Origin: Euzebya pacifica
GTDB taxonomy: Bacteria > Actinomycetota > Nitriliruptoria > Euzebyales > Euzebyaceae
Reading direction: 5' to 3'
Assembly: GCF_003344865.1 (NCBI RefSeq)
Contig: NZ_CP031165.1
Span: forward strand, 2,609,910 to 2,673,909
DNA: 64,000 nucleotides
Shown here: positions 1,969-29,174 of the stretch, piece after piece
How the letters are laid out: each line of letters starts with the position of its first letter
Numbering within the stretch: position 1 is the stretch's first letter
Translations under genes and position numbers: made by a program
Notes under the pieces: model-generated
Told to the model about the DNA's origin: nothing
Seen by the model: only the letters and a program-made list of their open reading frames with translations
Databases searched by the model: none

Positions 1969-3570
1969 ATGATCGCGATCGCGGCGAAGGTGGCGAACCT
2001 GTTCTCGAGCACGCGCAGCGTGCGTGGGGTCAGGCTTGCCCTTGCCCTTGTCGCCGTGGGCGTCCTCACGCTGCTGCTCGTCCTGTTGATGCGGGACGAG
2101 GCGGGCCGTCGTGCCCGTGCCGATGCGGTGCTCGACGGCATGGCGCAGGACGCGGGCATGGTGCTGGATGCGTGGTGGGACAACCACCTCGTCCTTCAGC
2201 GTGCCGCTGGATTCGGGCTGGGCAGCGACGACGCGGCGGCGTTCCAGACGGCCTGGGACTTCTCCCACGTGCAGTTCGCCCTCCTGCTCGACGGCGACGG
2301 ACGCGTGCTGGCGACCTATCCCGAGCGTCCCGACCTGGCCGTCGGCGACGACCTCTCGGGATCCTTTCCCCACATCGACGCCGTGCTCGCCGGGGCCGGC
2401 AGCGCCTTCTGGGCCAGCGGTGACTCCGTGACCGACTCGGGCACCGTCGTCGCCAGCGCCGTGTCCACCGGCCTGTCCGGCGGAGTGGTGTCGGCCGCGA
2501 TCGACCCCAGGGCCACCGCGCTGCCCGACCTGCTCGCCGCGACGGTGGCGGAGGTGCCCTCGGCGCGTGTCTCCGTCGTCGAACCCGTCACCGGCGTCAC
2601 GGTGATCTCGCCGCGACGCAGCACCGACGGGCTGGTCGCCCGCACGGCCCGAGCCGTCGAGGGCGGGTTCGAGGTGACGGTGGCCGTGCCGCAGGCGGAC
2701 CTCGCCGACCTCGTCGGTGGCACCACCAACCCGATCGCACGAGTGGTGGTGTCGACCATCGCGCTGCTCTTCGGGTTCGCCATCTGGCGGTTGCCGCGAC
2801 GGGTCGCGGGCGAACGTCGCACCGACGCCAGCACGCGGGCGCTGTTGGAGACACAGGCGGCGCTGGAACGGTCACGCGAGGAGCTGCGGCTGTTCTCCTA
2901 CCGTGTTGCCCACGACCTCGTCGGTCCCCTGACCGGCATCAAGGGCCTGGCGCAGATGCTGGCCGAGGGACGTGTGCGTGACGACGACGTCCCCGTGGTC
3001 ACGGCGCGACTCGCGAACTCTGCCGAGGCGGCCGTCGGCATGGTCCACGGCCTGCTGGGCAGCGCCGAACGCCTCGGCGGCGAGACCCGGTCACGTGTGG
3101 AGCTCGTCGAGCTGCACGACTGGGTGCAGCGCATGGTCGCCACGGAGCTCGCCCAGACGGGCGGTTCGGTAGACCTCGACACGGAGGCGGACGTGCTGTC
3201 GCTGCCGGAGCAGACCGTGCGCACGGTCCTCCTCAACCTCGTCGTGAACGCCCTGAAGTACCGACGACCGAACGTGCCGCCACGGGTGACCATCGGCGTG
3301 CGGGCGGTCCCCGACGACGACACGGTGGAGTTCACGGTCCGCGACAACGGGATCGGGGTCGAGCCGGCCGAGCTGTCCCGCATGTTCGACCGCGGTGAGC
3401 GACTGCAGGCCGACGACCGCACCGACGGCCACGGATCCGGCCTCGCGGAGTGTCGTCGGCTGCTGACCGTCCTCGGCGGGCGCATCGTTGCCGACAACGC
3501 CGACGGCAACGGGCTGGTCGTGACCTTCACCGTCCCTGTCGACGTGACGACGTCCAGTTCGGCTCGCTGA
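1969..3570 (+). CDS. Membrane sensor histidine kinase (orphan)
   Basis: The 533-residue protein has a first membrane helix at about residues 21-41, an extracytoplasmic sensor region of about 210 residues with no recognised fold, and a second helix at about 256-275. A HisKA dimerisation domain follows with phospho-acceptor His315 in VAHDLVGPL, then a HATPase_c domain with an N box (NLVVNALKY), G1 box (DNGIGV) and G2 box (GHGSGLAE). It should autophosphorylate in response to an outside signal. No response regulator lies beside it, so the partner and signal are unknown. The open frame overlaps dtd upstream; the ATG at 1969, just after AAGAGG, was chosen, with TTG 1951 as alternative. Confidence 0.9.
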   Translation: MIAIAAKVANLFSSTRSVRGVRLALALVAVGVLTLLLVLLMRDEAGRRARADAVLDGMAQDAGMVLDAWWDNHLVLQRAAGFGLGSDDAAAFQTAWDFSHVQFALLLDGDGRVLATYPERPDLAVGDDLSGSFPHIDAVLAGAGSAFWASGDSVTDSGTVVASAVSTGLSGGVVSAAIDPRATALPDLLAATVAEVPSARVSVVEPVTGVTVISPRRSTDGLVARTARAVEGGFEVTVAVPQADLADLVGGTTNPIARVVVSTIALLFGFAIWRLPRRVAGERRTDASTRALLETQAALERSREELRLFSYRVAHDLVGPLTGIKGLAQMLAEGRVRDDDVPVVTARLANSAEAAVGMVHGLLGSAERLGGETRSRVELVELHDWVQRMVATELAQTGGSVDLDTEADVLSLPEQTVRTVLLNLVVNALKYRRPNVPPRVTIGVRAVPDDDTVEFTVRDNGIGVEPAELSRMFDRGERLQADDRTDGHGSGLAECRRLLTVLGGRIVADNADGNGLVVTFTVPVDVTTSSSAR

Positions 3571-3584
3571 GGGCCGTTCGAGGC

Positions 3585-3622
3585 TTTACACGCAAGAAAC
3601 ATTGAAGCAATCCGAGCGGAAC
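3585..3622 (+). promoter_or_regulatory. GlnR-like box upstream of amt
   Basis: Four pentamers spaced by exactly six bases read TTTAC-N6-GAAAC-N6-GCAAT-N6-GGAAC. This follows the actinobacterial GlnR operator layout gTnAc-N6-GaAAc repeated twice. It lies 80 bp before the amt start, a position suited to activation. That GlnR binds here is inferred from the layout; no glnR gene is in the window. Confidence 0.62.
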
Positions 3623-3701
3623 GGCTGCTCCTTACGTTTCCTCCCACAGTACGAATCCCATAGCCGTTGAGGATTCGTCACCCCCCCAGGAGGTAACGGT
3701 T

Positions 3702-5147
3702 TTGCGACTCAAGCTCATGGCCACTCTGATGGCCGCCATGTCCGCGTTGTTGGTCCTTGCGGGGCCAGCGGCCGCGCAGGACGTGGCCACCGTCGAGGAC
3801 GTGGCACTCGTCCAGTTCAACCTCGACGTCGTGTTCTTCATGCTGGCAGCCGGCCTCGTCTTCTGGATGCAGGCGGGCTTCAGCATGCTCGAGACGGGCA
3901 TGACCCGTTCCAAGAACGCCGCCAACATCATGATGAAGAACATGGCTGACGCCTGCTTCGGCATCATCGCCTACTTCCTGCTCGGCTTCGGCCTGATGTA
4001 CGGCGCGTCGGCCGGTGGCTTCATCGGCACCGACACGTTCGCCCTCTCTGCAGGCAGCTACTCCGAGCTCGGCCTGTACGGCGGAGACTCCTTCCTCGCC
4101 GCCGACTTCATCTTCCAGGCCGTGTTCGCCGCGACCGCCGCGACGATCGTGTCCGGTGCCGTCGCCGGCCGCATGAAGTTCTCCGGCTACCTCATCGTCA
4201 CGCTGCTGATGACCACGCTGATCTACCCGATCGTTGGTCACTGGAAGTGGGGCGGCGGCTGGCTGGACTCCCTCGGCTTCTACGACTTCGCCGGTTCCAC
4301 CCTGGTGCACATGACCGGTGGTGTGGCCGCCCTCGTGATCGCCGGCATCCTCGGCCCGCGCATCGGCAAGTTCGCCAAGGACGGCAAGCCCCGCGCCATC
4401 CCCGGCCACTCCATGCCGCTGGCCACCCTGGGCATGTTCGCCCTCTTCTGGGGCTGGTTCGGCTTCAACGGCGGGTCGGTCCTGGCCGCTGACGGTTCCC
4501 TCGTCGGCCCGGTCCTGCTGACCACGACCCTCGCCGGCTGCGCCGGTGGTGGGACCGCGATGGTCTACACCTGGCTGCGCTACGGCAAGCCCGACATCGG
4601 CATGACGATCAACGGCGTGCTGGCCGGCCTCGTCGGCATCACCGCCGGTGCGGACCAGGTCGGCGCGATCGCCGCCCTCGTCATCGGTGTCATCGCTGGT
4701 GTGCTGGTCGCCCTGGCCGTCCCCGCCGTCGACCGCCTCGGCATCGACGACGCCGTCGGCGCCTTCTCCGTCCACGGTGTCAACGGCGCCTGGGGCACCC
4801 TGGCGGTCGGCATCTGGGCCAACACCGGCGAGGAGGGCCTCACGGGCCTCTGGCACGGTGGTGGCGCCGGCCTGCTGGTCGACCAGCTGATCGGTGTGGT
4901 CGCGGTGTCTGCCTTCGTGGCGGTCTGCGCAGCAGCCCTGGCGTTCGCCCTCAAGGCGACCAACCTCCTGCGGGTCTCCGAGGCCGAGGAGATCGAGGGC
5001 CTCGACATCCACGAGCACGGCATGTACGGCTATCCCGAAGCCGCCCTCGGCGCCTCGGCCTACCCCGGTGGTCCAGTCACCGCACCGACCGGCGAGGTCG
5101 CCGTCAGCCTGCCGGCTGCCGACGCCCGCTCCGAGGAACCGGTCTAG
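3702..5147 (+). CDS. amt: Ammonium transporter (Amt family)
   Basis: The 481-residue protein has a signal-like N-terminus ending near GPAAAQ, then the Amt core of about eleven membrane helices. Visible Amt signatures are FWMQAGFSMLETG, SKNAANIMMKN, GPRIG, FWGWFGFNGGS and HGVNGAWGTLAVG, which carry the phenylalanine gate and twin-histidine pore region. It conducts ammonium/ammonia across the cytoplasmic membrane. The TTG start is supported by AGGAGGT at 3688-3694, seven bases upstream; the ATG at 3717 is placed worse. A GlnR-like box lies 80 bp upstream and a hairpin follows the stop. No glnK or glnD is adjacent, unlike many amt operons. The next gene downstream is glnA2. Confidence 0.95.
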   Translation: MRLKLMATLMAAMSALLVLAGPAAAQDVATVEDVALVQFNLDVVFFMLAAGLVFWMQAGFSMLETGMTRSKNAANIMMKNMADACFGIIAYFLLGFGLMYGASAGGFIGTDTFALSAGSYSELGLYGGDSFLAADFIFQAVFAATAATIVSGAVAGRMKFSGYLIVTLLMTTLIYPIVGHWKWGGGWLDSLGFYDFAGSTLVHMTGGVAALVIAGILGPRIGKFAKDGKPRAIPGHSMPLATLGMFALFWGWFGFNGGSVLAADGSLVGPVLLTTTLAGCAGGGTAMVYTWLRYGKPDIGMTINGVLAGLVGITAGADQVGAIAALVIGVIAGVLVALAVPAVDRLGIDDAVGAFSVHGVNGAWGTLAVGIWANTGEEGLTGLWHGGGAGLLVDQLIGVVAVSAFVAVCAAALAFALKATNLLRVSEAEEIEGLDIHEHGMYGYPEAALGASAYPGGPVTAPTGEVAVSLPAADARSEEPV

Positions 5148-5329: not shown

Positions 5330-6655
5330 ATGGATCGGCAGCAGCAGTACGTTCTCCGCACCGTCGACGAGCGCGACATCGGCTTCGTCCGGCTGTGGTT
5401 CACCGACGTGCTCGGGAGCCTCAAGTCGGTTGCCGTCACGGAGTCCGAGGTCGAGGGCGCCTTCGCGGAGGGCATCGGCTTCGACGGCAGCGCCGTCGAC
5501 GGCTTCGCGCGCGTCCAGGAGTCCGACATGCTGGCGCGTCCGGACGCCTCGACCTTCCAGGTCCTGCCGTGGAAGGAGGGCTCGCCGGGCGTGGCGCGCA
5601 TGTTCTGCGACATCCACCGTCCCGAGGGCGAACCCTTCGCGGCCGACCCGCGGCAGGTCCTGAAGCGCAACCTGTCCAAGGCCTCCCAGATGGGCTTCAC
5701 GTTCTACGTGCACCCCGAGATGGAGTTCTTCCTGTTCAAGGGGGCCGACGACCCGACGCCGCTGGACCGTGGTGGCTACTTCGACCTGACGCCCAACGAG
5801 ATCCAGTCCGACTTCCGCCGGCAGGCCATCACCATGCTGGAGAAGATGGGGATCTCGGTGGAGTACTCCCACCACGAGGTCGCGCCGTCACAGCACGAGA
5901 TCGACCTGCGGTATGCCGACGCCCTGACGATGGCCGACAACATCATGACGTACCGCCACGTCATCAAGCAGACCGCGATGCGCCTGGGTGTCCACGCGTC
6001 GTTCATGCCCAAGCCGTTGACTGGCGAGTGGGGCAGTGCCATGCACACCCACCTGTCGCTGTTCGACGGGGACTCCAACGCCTTCTACGACCCCGACGAC
6101 CCCTACCGGCTGTCCGACACCGCCAAGCACTTCACGGCCGGCCTGCTGCGCCATGCGCGGGAGATCACCGCGGTGACCTGCCAGTGGGTCAACTCCTACA
6201 AGCGGCTGGTGCCCGGCTACGAGGCGCCGGTGTTCATCTCGTGGGGACGCCACAACCGGTCCAGCCTGATCCGCATCCCCCAGTACAAGCCGACCAAGGC
6301 CGCGTCGACGCGCGTGGAGTACCGGGCCCCCGACCCCGCCTGCAACCCCTACCTGGCCTTCTCGGTCCTGCTGGCCGCTGGCCTCAAGGGCATCGAGGAG
6401 GGGTACGAGCTGCCACCGGAGGCCGAGGACAACATCTACGAGATGACCGAGGCCGAACGCCGGGCCGCGGGTATCACGTCGCTCCCGGCCTCCCTCGACC
6501 AGGCACTCAGCGTGATGGAGGAGTCCGAGCTGGTCGCCGAGGCACTCGGAGAACACGTCTTCGACTACTTCCTGCGCAACAAGTGGCAGGAGTGGGAGGA
6601 GTACCGCTCACAGGTGACGCCCTTCGAGCTCGAGCGGTACCTGCCGACGCTGTGA
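5330..6655 (+). CDS. glnA2: Glutamine synthetase, GlnA2-type class I
   Basis: This 441-residue protein resembles the actinobacterial GlnA2 branch throughout: it starts MDRQQQYVLRT, has GIGFDGSAVDGF, FMPKPLTGEW, the ATP-site block NRSSLIRIP and metal ligand regions MEFF and SMADN-like ADALTMADN. It ends in EHVFDYFLRNK, typical of GlnA2. The loop corresponding to the GlnA1 adenylylation site reads NIYEMTEAERRAAG, so it is divergent from the DKDIYEL of the GlnA1 in this window. It makes glutamine from glutamate, ammonia and ATP, or may act on a related substrate. GlnE follows after only 4 bases, the same order as in mycobacteria, which implies a two-gene operon. Confidence 0.93.
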   Translation: MDRQQQYVLRTVDERDIGFVRLWFTDVLGSLKSVAVTESEVEGAFAEGIGFDGSAVDGFARVQESDMLARPDASTFQVLPWKEGSPGVARMFCDIHRPEGEPFAADPRQVLKRNLSKASQMGFTFYVHPEMEFFLFKGADDPTPLDRGGYFDLTPNEIQSDFRRQAITMLEKMGISVEYSHHEVAPSQHEIDLRYADALTMADNIMTYRHVIKQTAMRLGVHASFMPKPLTGEWGSAMHTHLSLFDGDSNAFYDPDDPYRLSDTAKHFTAGLLRHAREITAVTCQWVNSYKRLVPGYEAPVFISWGRHNRSSLIRIPQYKPTKAASTRVEYRAPDPACNPYLAFSVLLAAGLKGIEEGYELPPEAEDNIYEMTEAERRAAGITSLPASLDQALSVMEESELVAEALGEHVFDYFLRNKWQEWEEYRSQVTPFELERYLPTL

Positions 6656-6659
6656 CCCC

Positions 6660-9557
6660 GTGAGCATCGAGCTCGGTCCAGCCGCGAACGCGGACTGGGC
6701 GGTCCGCACGCTGGAACGCATCCGCGAGCTGTCGCGGGAAACGTTCGTCCGCCTGGAACACGATCCGGACCTGGCGAGGACGGTCGTGGTGGTCACGGGG
6801 GCCTCCGAAGCGCTGGGCGACCAGATCGTGGGCCACATGGCCCTGCTCGACGTCCTGGTCGACGTCGACGACCCGTGGTCGGCGGACGTGGTGGCCGCCC
6901 GCGCCCGGGATGCCGTTGCCGCCGGGCTGGCGGACGGGGGCGACGATGCCGATGCGCGAGCGGCCGAGGCGATGGCCGGCATGCAACGCGAGGGCCTGCT
7001 GCGCATCGCCGCGCGGGACATGCTCGGTCTGGCCGACACCCCGCAGATCGCCGAGGAGCTTGCCGACCTGGCCGACGGCCTGATCGTCTGCGCGCACGGG
7101 GTGGCCGCCGAGGGCGCGGCAGGCACCGACGCCGAGCTGGCGGTGCTGGCGATGGGCAAGCTGGGCGGCGAGGAGCTGAACTACGTCTCCGACGTCGACG
7201 TGCTGTTCGTGCACCGCGGCGACACCCCGACGGCCGAGCGCATGGCCAAGCGTGTCCTGCACCTGCTCGGCACGCACACGCCACGCGGGGCGGTCTACGA
7301 GATGGACGCCAACCTGCGGCCCGAGGGTCGCAACGGTCCGATCACCCGCACCATCGAGAGCTACCGGGCCTACTACGAACGCTGGGCCAAGACCTGGGAG
7401 TTCCAGAGCCTGCTCAAGATGCGGCCGGTGGCCGGTCCGCCCGACCTCGGCGCGGACTTCGAGCAGCTGGTCGCGCCGTTCCTGTGGCCCGACTCCCTCG
7501 GCGCAGAGGCCGTGGAGGAGATCCAGCAGATGAAGCGCCGGGTCGAGACGTCCCGGCCGGTGACGCGCGACGGCAGCCGGCAGCTGAAGCTCGCGCCCGG
7601 TGGCCTGCGGGACATCGAGTTCGCCACCCAGCTGCTGCAGCTCGTCCACGGCCCGGCCGATCCGTCGTTGCGGCTGCGCGGCACCGTCCCGGCGCTGGCG
7701 GCGCTGGCGAAGGGCGGCTACGTCGACGACGGCGACGCCGCGTTGTTCACCGATGCCTACCTCTTCCTGCGGACCGTCGAACATCGGTTGCAGCTGCGTC
7801 AGCTCCGCCGCACCCACACCATCCCCGACGATCCCGGCGACCTGCAGCGGGTCGCCCGCACCATGGGGTTCCGCGACCTGCCCGCCCGTTCTGCGGCCGA
7901 GGAGTTCTCCAAGGAGCTGGCCCGTGTGCGCACGGGCGTACGGCGCTTGCACGAGCAGCTGTTCTACCGTCCGCTGCTCTCGACGCTGGCGTCCTACGGC
8001 GTCGAGGAGCGCGTGGTTGCGGCCGGCCGATTCGACAAGGATGCGGCAGCCGCCCGGCTGGCGGCGCTGTCGTTCTCCTCGCCGGGCCAGGCCCTTCGCC
8101 ACCTCGAGGCCATGGTGCAGGGCGGGGGGCGGACCGCGAGGCAGCTGCGGGTCGTGCTGCCGACCATGTTGCAGGCCCTGTCGGACCAGCCGGACCCGGA
8201 CGGTGGCCTGGCGGCCCTCCGCAGCCTGACCGACCAGCTCAAGGACAACCCCCGGTTCGTGCGGACCATCCGGGACAACCCGCCGGCGGCCCGGCTGCTG
8301 GCCAAGGTGCTCGGCGCCAGCCCGCGCCTGGGGGAGTGGCTCGGCCGGCAGCCGGAGGTGCTGCAGCTGCTGGACGACGAGGAGGTGCTCGCGCGGCCAC
8401 ACACCCGAGACGACGTGATGGGCGGGGTCGAGGGACTGCTCAAGCGCGGCGGCGGTCGGGTCAGCCGCGAGGCGTTGCGGCGCCTGAAGCGACGAGAGGC
8501 CCTGCGCACGGCCATGCGCGACGTCAACGGGGCGGCCGACGTTCCCGAGATCGGTCGCGAGCTGACGTGGCTCGGCGAAGGCCTGCTGTACGCGGCGCTG
8601 TCCACCATCACCCCCGACGAGGTGCGGATCGCCGTGATCGGCATGGGTCGCTTCGGCGCCGGTGAGCTGGCCCACTCCTCCGACCTCGACGTGATCGTCG
8701 TGCACGACGGGCCGACCCCTGTCGCCGAACACGCGATGGAGGAGGTGCTGGAGTTCCTGTCCGCCGTAACCCCCGAGGGCTCGGCGTTCCGCGTCGACCC
8801 GGACCTGCGACCCGAGGGACGTCGCGGGCCGCTGACCCGGACGCTGGAGTCCTACGCCGCCTACTACGAGCGCTGGGGGCAGGACTGGGAGCTGCAGGCG
8901 CTGACGCAGGCACGCCCCGTCGCGGGCGACGCCGAGCTGGGTCAGGCCTTCATGGACCTGATCACGCCGCTGGTGTATCCCGACCCCATGCCGACCGAGC
9001 GGCTCGTCGCCATCCGCACCATGAAGGCACGGGTCGAACGCGAACGTGCGGGACGCAAGGGCGTGCAGCCGTCGCGTCGGACCCCACGGCGTCGCGCCGC
9101 AACCCTTCGCCGTGACCAGGTCGAGATCCGTGCCCGTGATGCAAGCCAACGACGGTCGTTGCCCAACGCCTCGTCCTCCGACGACCTCAAGCTCGGTCCC
9201 GGCGGCCTGAGCGACGTGGAGTGGACGGTGCAGCTGCTCAGCATGCGCCACGGTGGCGCCGACCCGCTGGTCCGGGGGCCGGGCACGCTGGCCGGCCTGG
9301 AGCGGCTTGCCGCTGCGGGGATCCTCGCACCCGAGGAAGCGGCATGGCTGCGCAACGGCTGGCTGCTGCTGTCGCGGCTGCGCAACGGGCTGTACCTGAT
9401 CAAGGTTCGCGACACCTCCACCCTGCCGCAGAACCCCGAGGTGCTGCAGAAGCTCGCGGCCCTGATGCACTACCGCTCGGCACAGGCCCTCACCGAGGAC
9501 GTCGACCGTGCCCGCCGCCGGATCCGCAAGGTCTTCGATCGTCGCTTCTTCGACTGA
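6660..9557 (+). CDS. glnE: Bifunctional glutamine-synthetase adenylyltransferase/deadenylase
   Basis: The 965-residue protein carries the two nucleotidyltransferase halves of GlnE. The N-terminal (deadenylase) half has GKLGGEELNYVSDVDVLFV at about residues 165-183, with the metal-binding DVD. The C-terminal half has GRFGAGELAHSSDLD at about residue 662. Each half is followed by an LRPEGR...GPxTRT block and a YYERW helical segment. GlnE attaches AMP to class I glutamine synthetase and removes it according to nitrogen state, normally with PII input. The GTG start lies 4 nt after the glnA2 stop. A 50-residue basic insert (about residues 800-845, rich in Arg) before the final helical domain is unusual. 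Confidence 0.96.
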   Translation: MSIELGPAANADWAVRTLERIRELSRETFVRLEHDPDLARTVVVVTGASEALGDQIVGHMALLDVLVDVDDPWSADVVAARARDAVAAGLADGGDDADARAAEAMAGMQREGLLRIAARDMLGLADTPQIAEELADLADGLIVCAHGVAAEGAAGTDAELAVLAMGKLGGEELNYVSDVDVLFVHRGDTPTAERMAKRVLHLLGTHTPRGAVYEMDANLRPEGRNGPITRTIESYRAYYERWAKTWEFQSLLKMRPVAGPPDLGADFEQLVAPFLWPDSLGAEAVEEIQQMKRRVETSRPVTRDGSRQLKLAPGGLRDIEFATQLLQLVHGPADPSLRLRGTVPALAALAKGGYVDDGDAALFTDAYLFLRTVEHRLQLRQLRRTHTIPDDPGDLQRVARTMGFRDLPARSAAEEFSKELARVRTGVRRLHEQLFYRPLLSTLASYGVEERVVAAGRFDKDAAAARLAALSFSSPGQALRHLEAMVQGGGRTARQLRVVLPTMLQALSDQPDPDGGLAALRSLTDQLKDNPRFVRTIRDNPPAARLLAKVLGASPRLGEWLGRQPEVLQLLDDEEVLARPHTRDDVMGGVEGLLKRGGGRVSREALRRLKRREALRTAMRDVNGAADVPEIGRELTWLGEGLLYAALSTITPDEVRIAVIGMGRFGAGELAHSSDLDVIVVHDGPTPVAEHAMEEVLEFLSAVTPEGSAFRVDPDLRPEGRRGPLTRTLESYAAYYERWGQDWELQALTQARPVAGDAELGQAFMDLITPLVYPDPMPTERLVAIRTMKARVERERAGRKGVQPSRRTPRRRAATLRRDQVEIRARDASQRRSLPNASSSDDLKLGPGGLSDVEWTVQLLSMRHGGADPLVRGPGTLAGLERLAAAGILAPEEAAWLRNGWLLLSRLRNGLYLIKVRDTSTLPQNPEVLQKLAALMHYRSAQALTEDVDRARRRIRKVFDRRFFD

Positions 9558-18696: not shown

Positions 18697-21168
18697 GTGA
18701 GATGGGTGGGTACGCATCGTCGGAGCCTCCAGGTGAGAGTGGCCGGCATGGTCGCCCTCCTGGTGGTCGTCCTGTCGCTGGTGTTCACCTGGCAGTGGGT
18801 GACCCGCGAACAGGCGGCGCTCCAGCGTGCCGTCGACACCTCGGTGATGGCGCTGGGCGAATCGTTGTTCATCGAGTTCGCCGACACGTTCACCGACAGC
18901 GGCATCGAGGCCATGACCGACTTCCAGCAGCGGGTCGAGGAGATCCCTGACGTGGAGTCCCTGGAGGTCGTGCCGCTCTCGGCATCGGCGCTGGCGTTGC
19001 TGGCGGACGGGGGCGCCGACCGCCTCGACCCGATCCGCCCCGAGGCGTTCGAGTCCGTCACCGAGGACGGCATCACGACGCTGCGTGTGCCCCTCACGAT
19101 CGACGGCGAACCGGTGCTCCGGGTGGAGGTGCGGTTCCGGGCGGGCTTGATCGACGAGCCGCAGGCCGCCGCCAGACGTGCCGGGATCGTCAACGGCGTG
19201 GTCGTGCTCCTGCTCGGCCTCGTGGCCACCTGGTTCGTCGCACGAAGCGCGACGTCGGGCGTGCGACAGCTCACCACCCAAGTGCGTGACTCCGCCGAAC
19301 GCCATCTGCCACAGGTGCTCTCGGCGGTCCGCGACGGGCGTCCGGTCACCCCTGCACAGCTGCAGCCGGGCGAGATCTCGGTGCGGGGTGTCGCCGAGGT
19401 CGAGGCGCTCTCCTCGGCCTTCACGACCCATCGCGCCGCCGTGGCCGAGCTGGCCGGAGAGCTGTCGGCCCGCCTCGTCCGGAGTGACACTCGCTTTCGC
19501 ATCGGCTTCGACCGCTCGCCGATGGGCATGGCGTTGATCGGTGCGGACGGTCAGGTCCAGCGGGTCAACGCCGCGCTCGCCACGTTGCTCGGGCGCGACG
19601 TCGACGACCTCGAGACCGCGTCATTGCCCGACCTGCTTCACCCCGACGACGTCGACCGCATGGCGGACGTGTTCCGGCGCCTGACCACCGGTGCGCTCGA
19701 GGGCGATGTGTCGGAGATCCGCTATCTCACCGCCGCTGGTGACGAGGTCTGGACCATGCAGGGTGCATCGGTGCACTTCGACGCTGACGGGCAGCCCCTG
19801 ACCATCTTCCTGCAGATGCAGGACGTCACCGAGACCAAGCACGCCCAGGAGTCCCTGCGCGAGCTGGCCTTCCACGACTCCCTCACTGGACTGCCGAACC
19901 GAGTGGCGCTCGAACGCGAGCTGCAGTCGGCGCTCGAGTCGGGCCGCCCTGCCCTGGCCATGCTCGACCTGGACCGGTTCAAGCTCGTCAACGACAGCCT
20001 CGGCCACCATGCGGGCGACCGGCTGCTGCAGGCCGTCGCGGCACGTCTGGATGCGCTCGTCTCACCCGTCGGCATGCTGGCACGCCTGGGCGGCGACGAG
20101 TTCGTTGCCGTGCTCCGGTCGGTGGACGCTCGTGTTGACGTCGAGCTGGCGGCGACGCAGCTGCTGGCAGGGATGGAGGCGCCCTTCGAGCTGGACGGCC
20201 GTCGGTTCTGGGTGCGCTGCTCGATCGGCCTCGCGATGGCCGAACCCGAGCAGACCGCCAACGACCTGCTCTCCAACGCCGACGCTGCCGTCCACCACGC
20301 CAAGCAACGCGGCCGCGGCGGATGGGCCCTGTTCGACCAGAGCCTGCAGGACAACGCCACCGAACGGCTCGGTTTGGAGCACGACCTGCGCGATGCCCTC
20401 GGCACCGACCAGCTGCTGCTGCACTACCAGCCGATCGTGTGCGCCCGCACGGGTCGCCTCGTGGCGCTGGAGGGCCTGGCTCGCTGGGCGCACCCGACCA
20501 GGGGATTCGTGTCGCCCGGCTCGTTCGTCCCCGTCGCGGAGGAGACCGGCCTGATCACCGAGCTCGGCGATCGCGTGCTGGAGCTCGGCCTGGCCGACCT
20601 GGCCCGCTGGTCGGCCTCGTGCCCCGATCAGGCGTCGTTCCACCTCTCGCTGAACCTGTCCGGCCGCCAGCTCCACGATCACGACCTCGTGCGCCGCGTC
20701 GGCACCCTCCTCGACCACCACGACATCGATCCCGGCCGTCTCGTGCTGGAGGTCACCGAGACCACCCTGCTCGACGACCGTGCCGTCGACCACCTGGAGC
20801 TGCTCCGGCAGCTCGGCGTGCGAATCGCAGCCGACGACTTCGGGTCGGGATTCACCGCCATCGGACAGCTGGCCCGACAGCCCGTCGACATCCTCAAGGT
20901 CGACATGTCCCTGGTCCGCGATGCCGTCGAGGGCGGGAAGGCCGCGGCGATCCTTGCCTCGGTCGGCTCGCTCGGCACCGCACTGGGCGTGTCGGTCGTC
21001 GCCGAAGGGGTGGAGGAGTGGGCGCAGTACGACGCCGCCGTGGCCGCTGGATGTGACCTGATCCAGGGATACCTCTTCGGGCGTCCGGTCGCCGCCGACG
21101 TCGTCACCGCCGACGTCCTGCCGACCGACGACCTGATGGCCCGGGCAGCTCCCGAGCCGACCGCCTGA
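18697..21168 (+). CDS. Membrane-bound HAMP-PAS-GGDEF-EAL cyclic-di-GMP enzyme
   Basis: From GTG 18697 the protein has 823 residues. Two membrane helices (about 14-34 and 161-184) flank an extracytoplasmic sensor. A HAMP-like linker, a PAS domain (about 270-380, RFRIGFDRSPMGMAL and DLLHPDD) and a GGDEF domain (intact LGGDEF) follow. No RxxD inhibition site is seen before the GGDEF. The EAL domain has EGL in place of EAL and keeps NLSGRQL, LEVTETTL, DDFGSGF, KVDMSLV and VAEGVEE, so it is probably active. It likely both makes and degrades c-di-GMP. The open frame extends upstream through the exported-peptide gene and its terminator, so the longer start was rejected. The stop overlaps the next ATG by one base. 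Confidence 0.9.
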   Translation: MRWVGTHRRSLQVRVAGMVALLVVVLSLVFTWQWVTREQAALQRAVDTSVMALGESLFIEFADTFTDSGIEAMTDFQQRVEEIPDVESLEVVPLSASALALLADGGADRLDPIRPEAFESVTEDGITTLRVPLTIDGEPVLRVEVRFRAGLIDEPQAAARRAGIVNGVVVLLLGLVATWFVARSATSGVRQLTTQVRDSAERHLPQVLSAVRDGRPVTPAQLQPGEISVRGVAEVEALSSAFTTHRAAVAELAGELSARLVRSDTRFRIGFDRSPMGMALIGADGQVQRVNAALATLLGRDVDDLETASLPDLLHPDDVDRMADVFRRLTTGALEGDVSEIRYLTAAGDEVWTMQGASVHFDADGQPLTIFLQMQDVTETKHAQESLRELAFHDSLTGLPNRVALERELQSALESGRPALAMLDLDRFKLVNDSLGHHAGDRLLQAVAARLDALVSPVGMLARLGGDEFVAVLRSVDARVDVELAATQLLAGMEAPFELDGRRFWVRCSIGLAMAEPEQTANDLLSNADAAVHHAKQRGRGGWALFDQSLQDNATERLGLEHDLRDALGTDQLLLHYQPIVCARTGRLVALEGLARWAHPTRGFVSPGSFVPVAEETGLITELGDRVLELGLADLARWSASCPDQASFHLSLNLSGRQLHDHDLVRRVGTLLDHHDIDPGRLVLEVTETTLLDDRAVDHLELLRQLGVRIAADDFGSGFTAIGQLARQPVDILKVDMSLVRDAVEGGKAAAILASVGSLGTALGVSVVAEGVEEWAQYDAAVAAGCDLIQGYLFGRPVAADVVTADVLPTDDLMARAAPEPTA

Positions 21169-23273: not shown

Positions 23274-24437
23274 ATGACGCACGTCCTCGATGGCGGGGCC
23301 CTGTACGCCACGTACGACCGCTTCCCGGCGCCGAAGGGCGCGTCGACCCACATCGCCCGGTTCGCCGGCGCGTTGCTGGGCGCCGCCGATCACGGGCTGC
23401 TGCACTGCCTGGCGGGGGACAGCCTCCCCCCGTACCAGCAGGAGGGGACGATCACGATCCGACGGACCGCGGCAACGGAGGTGCATCCGCTGGGCCGTGC
23501 CGAACGGTTCGGGGCCGAGGTGGCGGACAGCGTCGCCCGGGAGCGGTGGACGACCGCCCAGGGACGTGAGCCGTGGAGCGTCATGGCGCTGCTCGCGGAG
23601 GATCGGACCTGGCCGGTGGTGTACGAGGTCAACGGCCTTCCGTCGATCGAGTGGGCCGAGACCTACCCGCAGGCCCCGCGTGCCGACCTGGCAGCCATCG
23701 ACGCCCTCGAACGGTGGTGCCTCGACCGGGTCGATGCGGTCGTCACACCCTCCGCCGTCACCGCGCAGGCGCTGGCCGACCGTGGCGTGTCGAGCGAACG
23801 GATCGCCGTCATCCCCAACGGCGCGGACCTCCCCGACCCGGCCCTGCCACGACCCCCCGACGCCCCATCCGGCCCCTACCTCGTCTACGTCGGCGGTCTG
23901 CAGCCGTGGCAAGGCGTCGATGTGGCCGTCCGCGCACTTGGTCGGATCCGCGATCTCGGCATCCCCCTGGTGGTGGTGACCGGCGCACGACCGCGGCAGC
24001 TCCGCCCACTGCTGCAGCTGGCACGCCGGCTCGACGTCGGCGACCTGGTCCACGTACGGAACGCGCAGCACGCCGCGGCGACATCGGCGTGGCTGGTCCA
24101 TGCGTCCGTGTCGTTGGCCCCGCTGCGCGACACGCCACGCAACACCGTCCAGGGCTGCTGTCCGCTGAAGGTCGTGGAGAGCCTGGCGGCGGGCACGCCG
24201 GTCATCGGCAGCGATCTGGAGGTGGTCCGCGCGGAGGTGCCCGACGGCATCCACGGCCTGCTCGTGCGGCCGGACCGGCCACGGGACCTGGCCCGCGCCA
24301 TCCGCGTCGCGCTGGATGCCCCGGAGGCGCTTGCTCGCTGGGGTGCCGCGGGGCGCGCCCACATCGCGTCGAACCGGACATGGAGCGCCGCGGAACAGGC
24401 GTTGCTGGACGTCCACGTTCGCCTCATCACAACCTGA
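23274..24437 (+). CDS. GT4-type glycosyltransferase
   Basis: The 387-residue protein has the GT-B fold. The N-terminal domain includes the glycine-rich acceptor loop (FPAPKGASTHIARFAG), and the C-terminal domain has LVYVGGLQPWQG, then CCPLKVVESLAAGTPVIGS, the EX7E-type nucleotide-sugar site of family 4. It should transfer a sugar to a lipid, protein or glycan in the cytosol. The ATG at 23274 was chosen because the upstream extension overlaps the SDR gene on the other strand. It is the first gene of a five-gene run with two other glycosyltransferases. Confidence 0.88.
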   Translation: MTHVLDGGALYATYDRFPAPKGASTHIARFAGALLGAADHGLLHCLAGDSLPPYQQEGTITIRRTAATEVHPLGRAERFGAEVADSVARERWTTAQGREPWSVMALLAEDRTWPVVYEVNGLPSIEWAETYPQAPRADLAAIDALERWCLDRVDAVVTPSAVTAQALADRGVSSERIAVIPNGADLPDPALPRPPDAPSGPYLVYVGGLQPWQGVDVAVRALGRIRDLGIPLVVVTGARPRQLRPLLQLARRLDVGDLVHVRNAQHAAATSAWLVHASVSLAPLRDTPRNTVQGCCPLKVVESLAAGTPVIGSDLEVVRAEVPDGIHGLLVRPDRPRDLARAIRVALDAPEALARWGAAGRAHIASNRTWSAAEQALLDVHVRLITT

Positions 24438-24461
24438 TCCACCAACGCCCCCGATCGTGTA

Positions 24462-24467
24462 TACGCT
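24462..24467 (+). promoter_or_regulatory. Candidate -10 box of a leaderless transcript
   Basis: TACGCT matches TANNNT and ends 6 nt before the GTG at 24474, so the downstream four genes may also be transcribed separately from the first glycosyltransferase. Confidence 0.48.
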
Positions 24468-24473
24468 GCGCCG

Positions 24474-25223
24474 GTGAGCGACACGACAACGGGGCCAGCG
24501 AGCAGCTGGATGCGATCCCTCGACGGTGGCGGATGGCAGGGGGGCCAGCTGTCACCCGCCGAATGGCGCGGCGTGGTGCGGGAGGTTGCCGAGGCCAACC
24601 GCCTTGCGCGTCTCGAGCGCGACGGCGCCGGGTTCCTCCGGCGGACCTTCCGGAAGAAGACGCTGCCCCCGATCGCCCCCGACGACTGGTTGGCCATGGC
24701 CGCACCGCTGGTCGAGGTGGTCGCCGACGACGCGCGGCCGGACGCGCCCATGACCGTCAGCATCGACGTCCGTGGCACGCAGTCGCCGGACAAGGTGGTC
24801 TGGAAGGGCGCGCTGGCCGAGCCGCTGCCGCCCCGGGTGCGAACGATCGACGAGACCCGCTACAGCGACCCGATCCTGGACCTGCACGCCCGTCTCGTCG
24901 ACGGCACTCGCTGTCACCTGTCCGTCGTCCGTCGTGTCCGGGCACGTCGGATCGTCAAGCGATCCGCCTCGAACAAGATCAAGGTCAAGCACAAGGAGAA
25001 GACCAAGACGGTCATCAACGCGAAGCTCGTCGTGGACGGGGCACGCCCGATCCATGACCCGCCCGCCGGGGTCCCCGTCACCGTCGACCGCTCCGGTGCG
25101 CAGGTCCGTATCTCCTCGAGGGCCACGCTCACCGATGCCCGGCCCGAGCAGGTGGTCGAGGTGGCGCTCGGACTCCTGGTCGGCGTCCACGGCCTGATCG
25201 ATGCAGGGACCACGACCCGATGA
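24474..25223 (+). CDS. Hypothetical protein in the glycosyltransferase cassette
   Basis: No family was recognised in this 249-residue protein. It has no signal peptide or membrane segment. Residues about 30-65 look helical and charged (FLRRTFRKKTLPP). A second notable part, about residues 158-185, is strongly basic and β-like (NKIKVKHKEKTKTVINAK). The rest alternates Val-rich strands. The GTG start is 6 nt after a TANNNT box, and the stop overlaps the next start by 4 bases. Its conserved coupling with the two following genes suggests a role in the same glycan pathway, but this is inference. Confidence 0.7.
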   Translation: MSDTTTGPASSWMRSLDGGGWQGGQLSPAEWRGVVREVAEANRLARLERDGAGFLRRTFRKKTLPPIAPDDWLAMAAPLVEVVADDARPDAPMTVSIDVRGTQSPDKVVWKGALAEPLPPRVRTIDETRYSDPILDLHARLVDGTRCHLSVVRRVRARRIVKRSASNKIKVKHKEKTKTVINAKLVVDGARPIHDPPAGVPVTVDRSGAQVRISSRATLTDARPEQVVEVALGLLVGVHGLIDAGTTTR

Positions 25224-25555
25224 CCCGCTGCACGCTCCCGAGGGGCTTCGTCAACGTCCGCCAGTGCGATGCCGACGCTGCCGGGCAGTGCCCGGAGTGC
25301 CGTCGATCGGTCTGCGTCGAGCACTGGACGGGCTCGATGTGCGTGGAGTGCGCGGCCGCACGGGGGTGGCTGACCGACACACATGCGGCCGCGAGCTACC
25401 GGCAGCGGTTCCGGTCCCGGTTCGGCGGCCCGTCGGGCCAGCGCAACGACGACGGCGACTTCTGGTTCGACCACGCGTGGTACGTCCAGCAGTCGGGCCT
25501 CCTCGACACCACCGACGAGTGGACCGACGACGAGGGCAGCGGCTGGGACTCGTGA
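25220..25555 (+). CDS. Small zinc-ribbon/B-box-like hypothetical protein
   Basis: The 111-residue protein has a Cys/His pattern near its N-terminus: Cys-x-x-Asp then CPECRRSVC, EHWTG and MCVECA, i.e. six Cys and one His fitting a cross-brace or B-box-type zinc site. The C-terminal half is rich in Asp and aromatic residues (DGDFWFDHAWYV). The function is unknown. The ATG overlaps the previous stop (ATGA), and the following glycosyltransferase starts 7 nt after the stop. Confidence 0.7.
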   Translation: MTRCTLPRGFVNVRQCDADAAGQCPECRRSVCVEHWTGSMCVECAAARGWLTDTHAAASYRQRFRSRFGGPSGQRNDDGDFWFDHAWYVQQSGLLDTTDEWTDDEGSGWDS

Positions 25556-25562
25556 ACACCCG

Positions 25563-26684
25563 TTGACCACACGACTCCTGTGGGTCACGGCCCATCACCC
25601 ACCGAGCCGGGGCGGCATGGCCACCTCCAGCGACCGGATCACCTCCCGGCTCCGCGGGCTGGGCGTCGGCATCGACCTGGTGCACCTGACCAACGGCGTC
25701 GGCGAGGTGCACGCCCGGCAGGTGGGGGGAGGGGAGGAGCTGGTGGTGCCCAGCGGTGGTGATGCCGCTGACGCCGCCCGCACGGCATGGAACCGCCTGG
25801 CTGGTAGGCACGGGCGGTACCGGGCCGTGGTGTGCTTCGGTGGTCCCCAGGCGATGGCCCCGGCGCCGGTCTGGGCCGCGTGGCTCGGCGCGCCGCTCGT
25901 CACGCTGCTGCGGGGCAACGACTTCGAGACGGGCGTGTTCTCGCCCCGCCGGTCGGTGCTGGTCGACGGCCTGCGCTCCTCGCGGGTCGTGTCCACCGTG
26001 TCACGTGACATGGCGCAGCGCGTCGGCCTGCTGCTCGGTGACGCCGGACCGACGGTGGTCACCGTCACCAACGGGATCGACACCCACCTGTGGACCGTCA
26101 CGGACTCCGACCGGCGCCGCGCGGCGGCGTGGCGGGCGGCAACGGTGCCGGCGGGCCGTCGGGTGGTCGGCCTCGTCGGGCAGCTCAAGGCCAAGAAGGG
26201 TGCGGTCGACCTGCTCGAGGCGGTACGGCGATCGGGCAGCGCGGACCGTGTGCACATCGCCCTGATCGGCGACCTCGACCCGGGTGTGGGTGAGTGGCTG
26301 GCGGCCGACGGGGGTCGGCTGTCGTGGTCGCACGAACCGTTCCTCGACCGGTTCGAGCTGCTCGCGCGCCTGCCAGCCATCGACGTGATCGCGCTGCCGT
26401 CCCGGCACGACGGCCTGCCGAACGTCGCGCTGGAAGCGGCCACGGTCGGCGTACCGCTGCTTGCCGCCCAGACCGGTGGGCTGGCCGACCTTGCCGCCGC
26501 CGGACCGATCGGCTTCACCTTCGACGCCGGCGATGCCGACGGGCTGGCCGAGGCCCTGGTCGCGGCGCTGTCGTGTCCGGCGGCCGACCTGCGTGATCTC
26601 GGGGCGAAGGCGGCCCGAACCGCCTCGGGGTTCGACGCCCAGCGGGAAGCCGAGGCGTACCTGGCCCTGTTCGCCGAGCTGTGA
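25563..26684 (+). CDS. GT4-type glycosyltransferase
   Basis: The 373-residue protein from TTG 25563 begins LTTRLLWVTAHHPPSRGGMATSS, the usual GT4 start with a Gly-rich acceptor loop. The donor domain has VVGLVGQLKAKKGAVDLLEAV and PSRHDGLPNVALEAATVGVPLLA, containing the EX7E-type site. It should use a nucleotide-activated sugar. An ATG at 25618 is possible but would remove the first strand. Its stop overlaps the next GTG by 4 bases, so it is coupled to the MurG-like protein. Confidence 0.87.
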   Translation: MTTRLLWVTAHHPPSRGGMATSSDRITSRLRGLGVGIDLVHLTNGVGEVHARQVGGGEELVVPSGGDAADAARTAWNRLAGRHGRYRAVVCFGGPQAMAPAPVWAAWLGAPLVTLLRGNDFETGVFSPRRSVLVDGLRSSRVVSTVSRDMAQRVGLLLGDAGPTVVTVTNGIDTHLWTVTDSDRRRAAAWRAATVPAGRRVVGLVGQLKAKKGAVDLLEAVRRSGSADRVHIALIGDLDPGVGEWLAADGGRLSWSHEPFLDRFELLARLPAIDVIALPSRHDGLPNVALEAATVGVPLLAAQTGGLADLAAAGPIGFTFDAGDADGLAEALVAALSCPAADLRDLGAKAARTASGFDAQREAEAYLALFAEL

Positions 26685-27466
26685 GCGTCGCCATCTGGTG
26701 CCCCGGCGACGGGCTGGGACACCTCACCCGAGCCGTGGCGGCCAGCCACACCCTCGGCATGGCCCCGGCTGGGGTCACGCTGCTGGTCGACGACCCGTCG
26801 GCGGTCGACACGCGGCTCTCCGGTGTCCATCAGCTCGATGTGGCGCGGCTGCCGCTGGAGGGCGTGGAGGAGCTGTGGGTCGACGCGCTGCCGTCCGGTC
26901 GGGGCGAGCTGACGATGGCTGCGCTCGCGGGAGTCCCGACCGTCAACCACCTGGCGCGGCGGCTGGACTGGTCGCGATACCAGCGGCTGCTGCCCGCGGA
27001 CCCGCCCCGGTTCGATCGGGTGCTGGTGACCGAGCCGCTGCCGGACCAACAACGGGCGTGGCTCGCGGCCCGCTCCCGTTCGGTCGAGGACGTCGAGCTG
27101 CACGACCCGCCTGCGCCGCCACCCCCCGCTGACATCGTCGACCTCGTCCGCGGGTCGTGGCTTGTCGTCCACTCCGGCCCGCCCTCCGAAGTGGAGGAGC
27201 TGGTGGCAACGGCGCGCGACACCGCCCGGGTGGTACGGACCACCGCCCGCGTGGTCGTCATCGGCAGCGGAGGACTCGACGTGCTGCCAGCGTGGCCGTT
27301 GCTCGGGCTGGCGGCGCGCTTGTTCACCGGGGGAGGGGCGAACACGATCCGTCAGGTACGCCTCCACGCCCCCGGGACCCCGCACACCGCCGTCCCCTTC
27401 CCCCGTCGACACGACGACCAGACGGCCCGCCTGGCTCGGCTCCGCACCGCCGCGGCGGCTCGCTGA
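26681..27466 (+). CDS. Compact GT28/MurG-like predicted glycosyltransferase
   Basis: The 261-residue protein begins VAIWCPGDGLGHLTRAVAAS, the GxGHxxR-type loop found in MurG-like and predicted archaeal/bacterial glycosyltransferases, and contains FTGGGANTIRQVRLH, the donor-site GGxxT block. It is about 100 residues shorter than MurG, because the second domain appears compressed. GTG 26681 overlaps the previous stop. It may modify the product of the two GT4 enzymes. The substrate is unknown. Confidence 0.72.
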   Translation: MSVAIWCPGDGLGHLTRAVAASHTLGMAPAGVTLLVDDPSAVDTRLSGVHQLDVARLPLEGVEELWVDALPSGRGELTMAALAGVPTVNHLARRLDWSRYQRLLPADPPRFDRVLVTEPLPDQQRAWLAARSRSVEDVELHDPPAPPPPADIVDLVRGSWLVVHSGPPSEVEELVATARDTARVVRTTARVVVIGSGGLDVLPAWPLLGLAARLFTGGGANTIRQVRLHAPGTPHTAVPFPRRHDDQTARLARLRTAAAAR

Positions 27467-27857: not shown

Positions 27858-29174
27858 ATGGCCAAGCCAATGGTCCTAGTCGTGTCGATCCTCCTCGCCC
27901 TGGGGGCAACGGGCGCGGCGGCGGGGTCGCTCGTCACGTCGGCGGCGCCTGGGTTGCCGGCGCAGGTCGTGGAGTTCACCCCCGATGCGACGCGGGAGGA
28001 GGGCTACCCGACGACCACCTGGACCGCGGACGGTCCGGTCGACGGCACCTCGCAGTGGCGCGTCGTGCACGGCACCGGCAACGCCGCGGAGCTGTGGTTG
28101 CACGCCACCCCCGACGGTCGCCTCTACGACTTCGGTGGCCGGTACCTGAACTACAGCGACGACGACGGCGAGACCTGGCAGTCCGTTCGCCCCCTGGAGC
28201 CGCTGGTCAACGGCGAGGGTTCCGTCGTCATGGCCCCCAACGGCGATGTCGTCGGCGTCACCTGGGACCCCTACGCGGGCGACCGCATCCTGACCTTCAA
28301 GTACACCGCGGCCACCGGCACGTGGGAGTACGCGGCCGACCCGTTCCACACCCCGTTCTGGGACCGGCCCGGCATCGACGTCATCCCCGGCGACTTCACC
28401 TCACCGACCGGCGAGCAGGTCTCCTACATCACCCTCATCAAGGGATTCCCCCACGAGCTGTGGCACTACAGCTACGACGGCCTGCACTACCCCTTCACGA
28501 TCTCCCGCGCGGTCGACGACCGGACGACGACGCCCATCTCCGACTGGCTGGACGTCGAGCCCGACGCGACGCTCGACTGGATCCAGCCCCTGCCCGTCCT
28601 GGGCGGCATGGTCACCCCGCTGGGTGGGGGCCGCGGCCTCGGCGGCTCGATGATGTTCGACGGTGAGGACATGCGGTGGCACCGCTTCACCATGCCGGAG
28701 GGGGCGATCCCCGGTGGCATCACCCAGACGGACTCGCGCGGCCGGCTGCACAACGTGGTCCGCAGCGGCGACGACGCGGTCTACCGCATCTCCACCGACG
28801 GTGGACGCTCCTGGTCCGGTGACCTCGTCCTTCCCGGCATCCGGCCGGGCGACATGAAGGCCAACGCGGCGGTCGGCGTTGCCGCCGTATCCGGCGTCGA
28901 CGGCACCCAGGACGTGCTCTACAAGCTCGACATCAGCACCGACGTCCCGACGCTGACGCAGCGGTTCGAGATCGGACTCGGTGATGACTGCCGCTGCTCC
29001 GGCATCGGGTTCTACGGCGTCCAGGGCGGTCACCGCTTCGACTTCCACACCGTCGTGATCCTCCCGGACGGCCGGCTGGCGGTGTCGTTCATGGACTCCA
29101 CCACCATCACCAGCTTCCCGACCCTCGACCTGCCCGTCGTGGCCCCCGCGCTCGCGGTGGAGCTGCCGGAGTAG
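27858..29174 (+). CDS. Exported sialidase/BNR-like β-propeller protein
   Basis: The 438-residue protein starts at ATG 27858 with AAGG 7 nt upstream. A signal peptide covers about residues 1-25. The body holds repeated β-strand blocks with Asp-box-like motifs such as SDDDGETWQSV and STDGGRSWSGD, which are the Ser/Thr-x-Asp-x-Gly-x-Thr-Trp hallmark of BNR propellers. No Arg triad of a true sialidase was identified, so it may be a binding protein and not an enzyme. Two Cys (DDCRCSG) lie near the C-terminus. It is convergent with the lipoprotein gene, 1 bp apart. Confidence 0.78.
   Translation: MAKPMVLVVSILLALGATGAAAGSLVTSAAPGLPAQVVEFTPDATREEGYPTTTWTADGPVDGTSQWRVVHGTGNAAELWLHATPDGRLYDFGGRYLNYSDDDGETWQSVRPLEPLVNGEGSVVMAPNGDVVGVTWDPYAGDRILTFKYTAATGTWEYAADPFHTPFWDRPGIDVIPGDFTSPTGEQVSYITLIKGFPHELWHYSYDGLHYPFTISRAVDDRTTTPISDWLDVEPDATLDWIQPLPVLGGMVTPLGGGRGLGGSMMFDGEDMRWHRFTMPEGAIPGGITQTDSRGRLHNVVRSGDDAVYRISTDGGRSWSGDLVLPGIRPGDMKANAAVGVAAVSGVDGTQDVLYKLDISTDVPTLTQRFEIGLGDDCRCSGIGFYGVQGGHRFDFHTVVILPDGRLAVSFMDSTTITSFPTLDLPVVAPALAVELPE

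Follow-up and report, generated by a model that had tools for sequence, protein, structure and literature searches.

Genomic organisation and conservation of the cassette

The segment 23274-27466 of the window, meaning the whole 64,000-nt stretch of Euzebya pacifica DNA that was analysed (contig NZ_CP031165.1, positions 2,609,910 to 2,673,909), is filled by five co-directional open reading frames (ORFs). They encode two GT4 glycosyltransferases (GT4A and GT4B), a compact third enzyme with a predicted GT-B fold and two small proteins, p249 and p111. The host genome assembly has 6.37 Mb in two contigs. The genes are as follows:

GT4A: 23274-24437, + strand, GT4 (GT-B) glycosyltransferase, 387 aa
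p249: 24474-25223, + strand, basic protein, 249 aa, GTG start
p111: 25220-25555, + strand, small Cys/His-rich protein of zinc-finger type, 111 aa
GT4B: 25563-26684, + strand, second GT4 glycosyltransferase, 373 aa, TTG start
Third enzyme: 26681-27466, + strand, compact enzyme of GT-B type, 261 aa, GTG start

The third-codon-position GC of the five ORFs is 0.88-0.94, a coding-type codon composition. An earlier sequence-only reading of this DNA described the genes as joined by overlapping starts. This holds for two of the four junctions, p249/p111 (ATGA) and GT4B/third enzyme (GTGA), and fails for the other two, where gaps of 36 nt (GT4A to p249) and 7 nt (p111 to GT4B) were found. The congener G002 carries all five genes in identical order between the same flanking genes, with identities of 83% (GT4A), 76% (p249), 77% (p111), 87% (GT4B) and 71% (third enzyme), and the TTG start of GT4B is common to both genomes. 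The dN/dS ratios were 0.155, 0.253, 0.490, 0.142 and 0.260 in the same gene order, and from this range of 0.14-0.49 it follows that all five are kept as proteins. The other two of the three congeners contained nothing that matched p249, p111 or the third enzyme at E 0.001.

Distant carriers were collected by scanning a public genome collection with a DNA pattern for the third-enzyme motif PFPRxxDDQxxR, which gave at least 119 stretches. The locus counts below (L numbers) refer to the 119 stretches listed, the true number being larger; Actinomadura dominates them, and the counts are not counts of independent events. Iterated profiles detected the third enzyme in 87 of these stretches, and an edge-cut 88th (L085) was seen by eye. 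The exact order GT4A-p249-p111-GT4B-third enzyme was present in 38 of the 87, while three further loci had the same order with a lipoprotein or secreted-protein gene (Lp) before the third enzyme. Of the 28 listed loci that extend 4300 nt or more upstream from the third enzyme, 20 had the exact order, three had the order with Lp, three had no separate p111 but had Lp, and two had no GT4, p249 or p111 nearby. The p249 gene was found in 52 of the 87 third-enzyme loci, many of which are cut by locus ends, versus none of the 32 listed pattern matches without a third enzyme; p111 and a strong GT4B were likewise found in none of these 32. According to the labels in the sequence records, the actinobacterial carriers of the third enzyme include Actinomadura, Actinoplanes, Nonomuraea, Actinoallomurus, Spirillospora, Virgisporangium and Solirubrobacter, and the others include Acidobacteria metagenome-assembled genomes (MAGs), Hahella, Fulvivirga, Chryseotalea and other Bacteroidetes. 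Since the order is kept in G002, the genes are under purifying selection and the same order recurs in 38 pattern-scan loci, the five-gene set is not due to chance. The cassette singled out by the sequence-only reading therefore has a conserved order, not a scattered one.

Family alignments contained 45 p249, 40 p111 and 48 third-enzyme rows, with short, edge-cut, run-on and redundant relatives left out, and trees were built from 37 loci with near-complete genes. Across these 37 loci the cassette tree distances correlate with r of 0.94-0.96. Ten genomes were searched for p249, and L127 and L129, the two positive controls whose loci contain p249, both matched. The other eight have a third-enzyme locus without a p249 profile match, and six of them have p249 elsewhere, either past the end of the locus on the same contig (L088, L126 and L113) or on another contig (L121, L112 and L093). 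Other cassette genes surround p249 in five of the six p249 regions read:

L215: GT4A-p249-p249-p111-GT4B, with Lp and the third enzyme elsewhere (L121)
L216: GT4A-p249-p111-GT4B-radical SAM/SPASM-Lp-third enzyme
L213: GT4A-p249-p111-flavin oxidase-PF02397 sugar transferase-GT4B-Lp
L214: GT4A-p249-p111
L218: p249-p111-GT4B
L217: p249 as the sole cassette gene of the stretch, without a fused tail

Searches of other collections returned few relatives. Single-protein queries of 61 genomes with p249 and the third enzyme matched the window genome and one congener only. The same two genomes were the only ones with p249, p111 and the third enzyme among 396 Actinomycetota, in a weak search that scored the best 6-11 first-look candidates per genome. 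The 48-row third-enzyme profile matched 21 of 296 evenly sampled Actinomycetota genomes, at full length only the window genome and G002; the remaining 19 gave short partial matches (E 8.5e-9 to 7.5e-4). Because full-length matches occurred in 2 of the 296 genomes, the full-length third enzyme is rare in the sampled Actinomycetota. GT4A matched seven of the 296 genomes at E 1e-20, five of the matches being general GT4s of 31-36% identity. No p249, p111 or third-enzyme match was obtained on plasmids, where GT4A and GT4B found general GT4s only, and no viral contig matched the family queries (other than the third enzyme) or the third-enzyme motif. An automatic pattern scan of genome contigs with poorly chosen peptides found no relatives.

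The three enzymes

The two GT4 glycosyltransferases named by the sequence-only reading are present. GT4A and GT4B score 67.0 and 59.3 bits with PF13692 (Pfam cut-off 27), GT4A also passes the cut-offs of PF00534, PF13579 and PF13439, and GT4B scores 58.5 bits with PF00534, so both carry Pfam GT4 domains above the gathering score. They differ from the GT4 glycosyltransferases that they resemble (PF00534/PF13692) in falling below the cut-off of every NCBIfam model listed (for GT4B, the best 25 of 26 models). A sequence search of the PDB with both proteins matched general glycosyltransferases. GT4B also passes PF20706 (GT4-conflict) with 29.4 bits against a cut-off of 26, about half its scores with the general GT4 models.

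The third enzyme carries the motifs GxGxGHxxR and PFPRxxDDQxxR. Residues invariant in the 48 aligned members include G9, G11, G13, H14, R17, N221, P239, F240, P241, R242, D245, D246, Q247 and R250; PFPR..DDQ..R was also the search pattern, so that outside the two genus members its invariance follows from the search itself. The structure model (pLDDT 95.5, pTM 0.90) has two Rossmann-like domains that match solved GT-B structures, and a GT-B fold is predicted along the whole length. It aligned with GtfD (1rrv; Z 15.7, rmsd 3.1, 241 residues), PseG (3hbn; Z 15.5, rmsd 3.8, 227 residues) and SpnG (Z 14.9), and Foldseek gave six matches at E ≤ 0.001, all GT1-type by our own labelling. The enzyme differs from GtfD, SpnG and PseG in being only 11-14% identical to them in these alignments and in having no Pfam or NCBIfam match, and the GT1 chains (GtfD and SpnG) are longer than its 261 aa.

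The sequence-only reading had called this enzyme MurG-like. The term stands for the motif and the predicted GT-B fold, and falls for the sequence family: the window protein had no Pfam match at E 1, no NCBIfam match at E 0.1 and no PDB sequence match up to E 1. Membership of the GT28/MurG family was rejected, as neither PF03033 nor PF04101 matched above the gathering score. Among the 48 members, PF03033 and PF13528 were each matched by one (E 0.048 and 0.061), both ranking below unrelated models in the same Pfam list, and TIGR00661 of NCBIfam was matched by one (E 0.0034).

The p249-p111 pair

The ORF of p249 has 249 codons for amino acids as described earlier, and its basic character extends through the family, the net charge being positive in all 45 members. 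D98, K168 and K170 are invariant in the 45 aligned sequences, and G167, K172, K174 and K176 are kept in at least 90%. The lysines K168, K170, K172, K174 and K176 occupy every second residue, and the model (pLDDT 87, pTM 0.83), which consists of helices and three long antiparallel strands, places a long strand at 169-188. No Pfam or NCBIfam cut-off was reached, the best Pfam E in any of the 45 members being 0.0019. Fold comparison gave Z of 7.7 with 2plg, 7.2 with CapZ, 6.5 with DR_1245 and 6.1 with SycT, while Foldseek and a BFVD fold search with the model returned nothing at E 0.001. Residues ~70-246 align with YbjN/type III secretion chaperone-like proteins (DR_1245 and SycT). The protein differs from them in Z values that stay under 8, in the lack of a sequence match, in additional N-terminal helices or a transmembrane-like stretch, in the lysine strand and in its position within a glycosyltransferase cassette. 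A chaperone-like fold is suggestive only, because the fold scores are middling. In all eight p249s compared from Hahella, Acidobacteria and Bacteroidetes, the hydropathy of the N-terminal third peaks above 2.2, which is consistent with a membrane anchor there; the N-terminal maxima of the actinobacterial p249s are at most 1.71. The p249 of the Gram-negative carriers seen is probably membrane-anchored.

All 40 aligned p111 sequences share C4, C16, C24, C27, C32, H35, C41 and C44. These invariant positions make up a complete complement of zinc-ligand-type residues, in agreement with the earlier description of a small Cys-rich zinc protein. By number, the eight would be enough ligands for two zinc ions. 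These conserved residues and the frame rule out chance coding. No Pfam or NCBIfam cut-off was reached: the best Pfam score of the window protein was 14.7 bits against a gathering score of 27.9, which assigns it to no zinc-finger family, and the best Pfam E in any of the 40 members was 0.0011 (ZnF_RZ). A PDB sequence search with p249 and p111 gave chance-level matches only. The tail of the window p111 is acidic and ends in -DS. The region after the Cys/His residues is negative in 40/40 members, and the C-terminal residue is Ser or Thr in all 53 complete members (49 end in DS), compared with 12 of 54 p249s and 14 of 89 third enzymes. Five further p111s, from the regions read around p249, end in DS or ES.

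The p249 protein and the p111 tail are linked by fusion, by gene overlap and by opposite charge. A tail ending in FDS is found on four Bacteroidetes p249s without a separate p111 (L076, L159, L127 and L097), while other Bacteroidetes (L143 and L215) have a separate p111. The p249/p111 overlap of 4 nt is present in 46 of 49 loci and absent in L105, L129 and L143, a count in which run-on p111 and third-enzyme calls were cut back to the domain or to a start codon close to the stop of p249, which favours finding the overlap. It is also present in L078, L138, L164 and L134, whose ORFs were short without trimming.

Proposed function and alternatives

The enzymes of the cassette are of known kinds, and it probably builds an unrecognised sugar structure. 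That the cassette is a self-contained glycan-assembly module in which p249 and p111 organise the three glycosyltransferases is, in our estimate, about evenly balanced between right and wrong. For order of action, acceptor, complex formation and location we infer the following scheme. GT4A, GT4B and the compact GT1/PseG-like enzyme would act in succession on one small shared acceptor, most likely a lipid-linked sugar, and make a short glycan on the cytoplasmic side of the membrane. The p249-p111 pair would be a non-catalytic core holding the three enzymes in a complex, with p249 as a basic, perhaps chaperone-like binding protein and p111 as an adaptor of zinc-finger type that would dock on p249 or on an enzyme through its acidic tail and C-terminal -DS. 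The order conservation, the co-occurrence of p249, the 4-nt overlap, the opposite charges of p249 and the p111 tail, the FDS-tailed p249s and the tree correlation argue for this organisation. The PF02397 sugar transferase within the L213 cluster points to a lipid-linked product and hints that the acceptor is polyprenyl-linked. The sequence-only reading had suggested that the two unknown proteins may be scaffolds or substrates; these putative roles gain indirect support from the 4-nt overlap, the opposite charges, the FDS-tailed p249s and the invariant Ser/Thr end of p111.

Several results weigh against the module. The tree-distance correlation is equally expected from plain vertical descent. 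The supporting cases are few, PF02397 being found in one cluster only and radical SAM genes in two. PseG is a hydrolase, and since it scores as high as the transferases, the third enzyme could be a hydrolase too; the fold alone does not separate the two. Type III secretion chaperone folds are matched only weakly by p249 (best Z 7.7, none with Foldseek at E 0.001). A Pfam scan of the five genes and four neighbours revealed no gene for a flippase, a polymerase, a ligase or NDP-sugar synthesis. Finally, the full set is not shown by L217, with its solitary p249, nor by L119 (Heimdallarchaeota MAG) and L151 (Chthonomonadales MAG), in which p249 was not found at E 0.001. L119 has GT4 relatives, a p111-like protein of 80 aa, a third-enzyme relative and a radical SAM-SPASM protein.

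A conventional operon for an exopolysaccharide or a glycolipid, in which the two small proteins are incidental, would account for two GT4s that are standard family members and for PF02397 in one cluster. We consider it fairly unlikely: p249 and p111 accompany the glycosyltransferases in Actinomycetota, Acidobacteria, Bacteroidetes and Hahella, they are mostly retained in split clusters, their core residues are invariant, and no Wzx/Wzy-type gene lies among the scanned window neighbours.

It is quite improbable that p111, or the p249-fused tail, is itself the acceptor, with the C-terminal Ser/Thr or a Ser/Thr/Tyr of the tail glycosylated to give a small glycoprotein or RiPP-like product and p249 serving as a tail-binding chaperone. 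This alternative is kept alive by the fixed Ser/Thr end of p111, so much less common in p249 and the third enzyme, and by the radical SAM-SPASM genes of the remote clusters L216 and L119, and the p249/p111 translational coupling would also fit. On the other side, no signal peptide was seen in p111 by eye, several Bacteroidetes have only the p249-fused tail, the fixed acidic C-terminus equally resembles a docking peptide, and radical SAM is confined to two clusters. In a more elaborate form, a novel kind of protein-templated glycosylation that we regard as a long shot, a lysine-stranded, chaperone-like p249 would present p111 as a zinc-headed carrier, the three glycosyltransferases would glycosylate its C-terminal Ser/Thr, and Lp would receive or display the glycan in some versions; such a system would range across Acidobacteria, Actinomycetota, Bacteroidetes and perhaps Asgard archaea.

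A role in conflict or defence, with modification of an intruder or of a self target, would suit the GT4-conflict match of GT4B and the patchy presence within the genus (two of four members), but is highly improbable, as general GT4 models give GT4B double that score, none of the four window neighbours scanned belongs to a defence family by Pfam, and ten cassette proteins matched no PADLOC family at E 0.01, on which ground an anti-phage defence system was rejected.

Returning to the glycan-assembly module, the sequence-only reading did not recognise the set from known pathways, and none was found here either. Mycothiol synthesis was rejected, since the MshA model TIGR03449 scores only 49.8 and 45.6 bits with GT4A and GT4B against a cut-off of 462.5. 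A Wzx/Wzy polysaccharide cluster was rejected as well, no Wzx/Wzy or GtrA gene being found by Pfam among the five cassette genes and the four scanned neighbours. The wps-1/2/3 and gsf clusters of Actinoplanes missouriensis, also rejected as a match, are likewise actinomycete glycan gene clusters; the available portion of their description reports Wzx/Wzy or GtrA genes, GT2 enzymes and sulfotransferases, one GT4 in wps-3 and a protein with a GT28 C-terminal domain in gsf, and the five-gene set is in none of them as described there (PMC13390465). No paper listed by searches of the open-licence literature describes the set by its title or the start of its abstract. Within the reach of these searches, family libraries, structure libraries and the open-licence literature contain no description of the p249-p111 core or of the five-gene set. 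Three families without a Pfam model travel with two GT4s across several bacterial phyla, and this joint travel strongly suggests a biosynthetic pathway that has not been recognised. The invariant tail of p111 and the lysine strand of p249 offer direct and cheap tests, and the carriers that are named strains (Actinoplanes, Nonomuraea, Hahella and Fulvivirga) open the cassette to genetics.

Neighbouring and accessory genes

By Pfam, the four window neighbours scanned encode a PAS-GGDEF-EAL protein, an epimerase-type dehydrogenase, an SDR-type dehydrogenase and a protein with sub-threshold BNR matches, none an obvious partner. The PAS-GGDEF-EAL protein (18742-21168) lies upstream of the cassette and is 86% identical in G002, and the epimerase-type dehydrogenase gene lies two genes upstream. 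The BNR-type protein (27867-29174, 435 aa) has no NCBIfam name and is 88% identical in G002. The neighbouring SDR gene is found in a different context in another genome, G003, where it is 68% identical.

The Lp protein is a lipoprotein or secreted lysine-rich protein of ~195-250 aa, with 12 full-length members, of which 10 were aligned; Pfam gave no match above a cut-off for the six of the 12 scanned. Its gene stands before the third enzyme, mostly after GT4B, in L076, L088, L097, L113, L125, L126, L127, L129, L143, L159 and L167, and also before the third enzyme in L121. In the last, a Cytophagales MAG, an ORF that looks polyphosphate kinase-like by eye directly precedes Lp and the third enzyme (oriented 2944-5067). 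The two tandem p249 paralogues of L215 lie at 5588-8073, one with additional transmembrane-like stretches. The radical SAM-SPASM genes in or beside the two very remote cassette versions are at L216:9291-10442 and L119:4601-5785, and on the opposite strand of L119 is a 521-aa protein that is p249-like by eye only.

Flanks were compared using ORFs of at least 100 aa in loci of up to 8 kb, shadow frames included, and no flank gene had a constant place across the distant carriers. Three kinds of recurrent flank groups were the exceptions. An FHA-like group downstream comprised 33 ORFs under six taxon labels, including Solirubrobacter and an Acidobacteriales MAG, on both strands and at varying distance. 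A response-regulator group had four ORFs under three taxon labels, and upstream groups of 46 and 32 ORFs were common to Actinomadura, Actinoplanes and Actinoallomurus.

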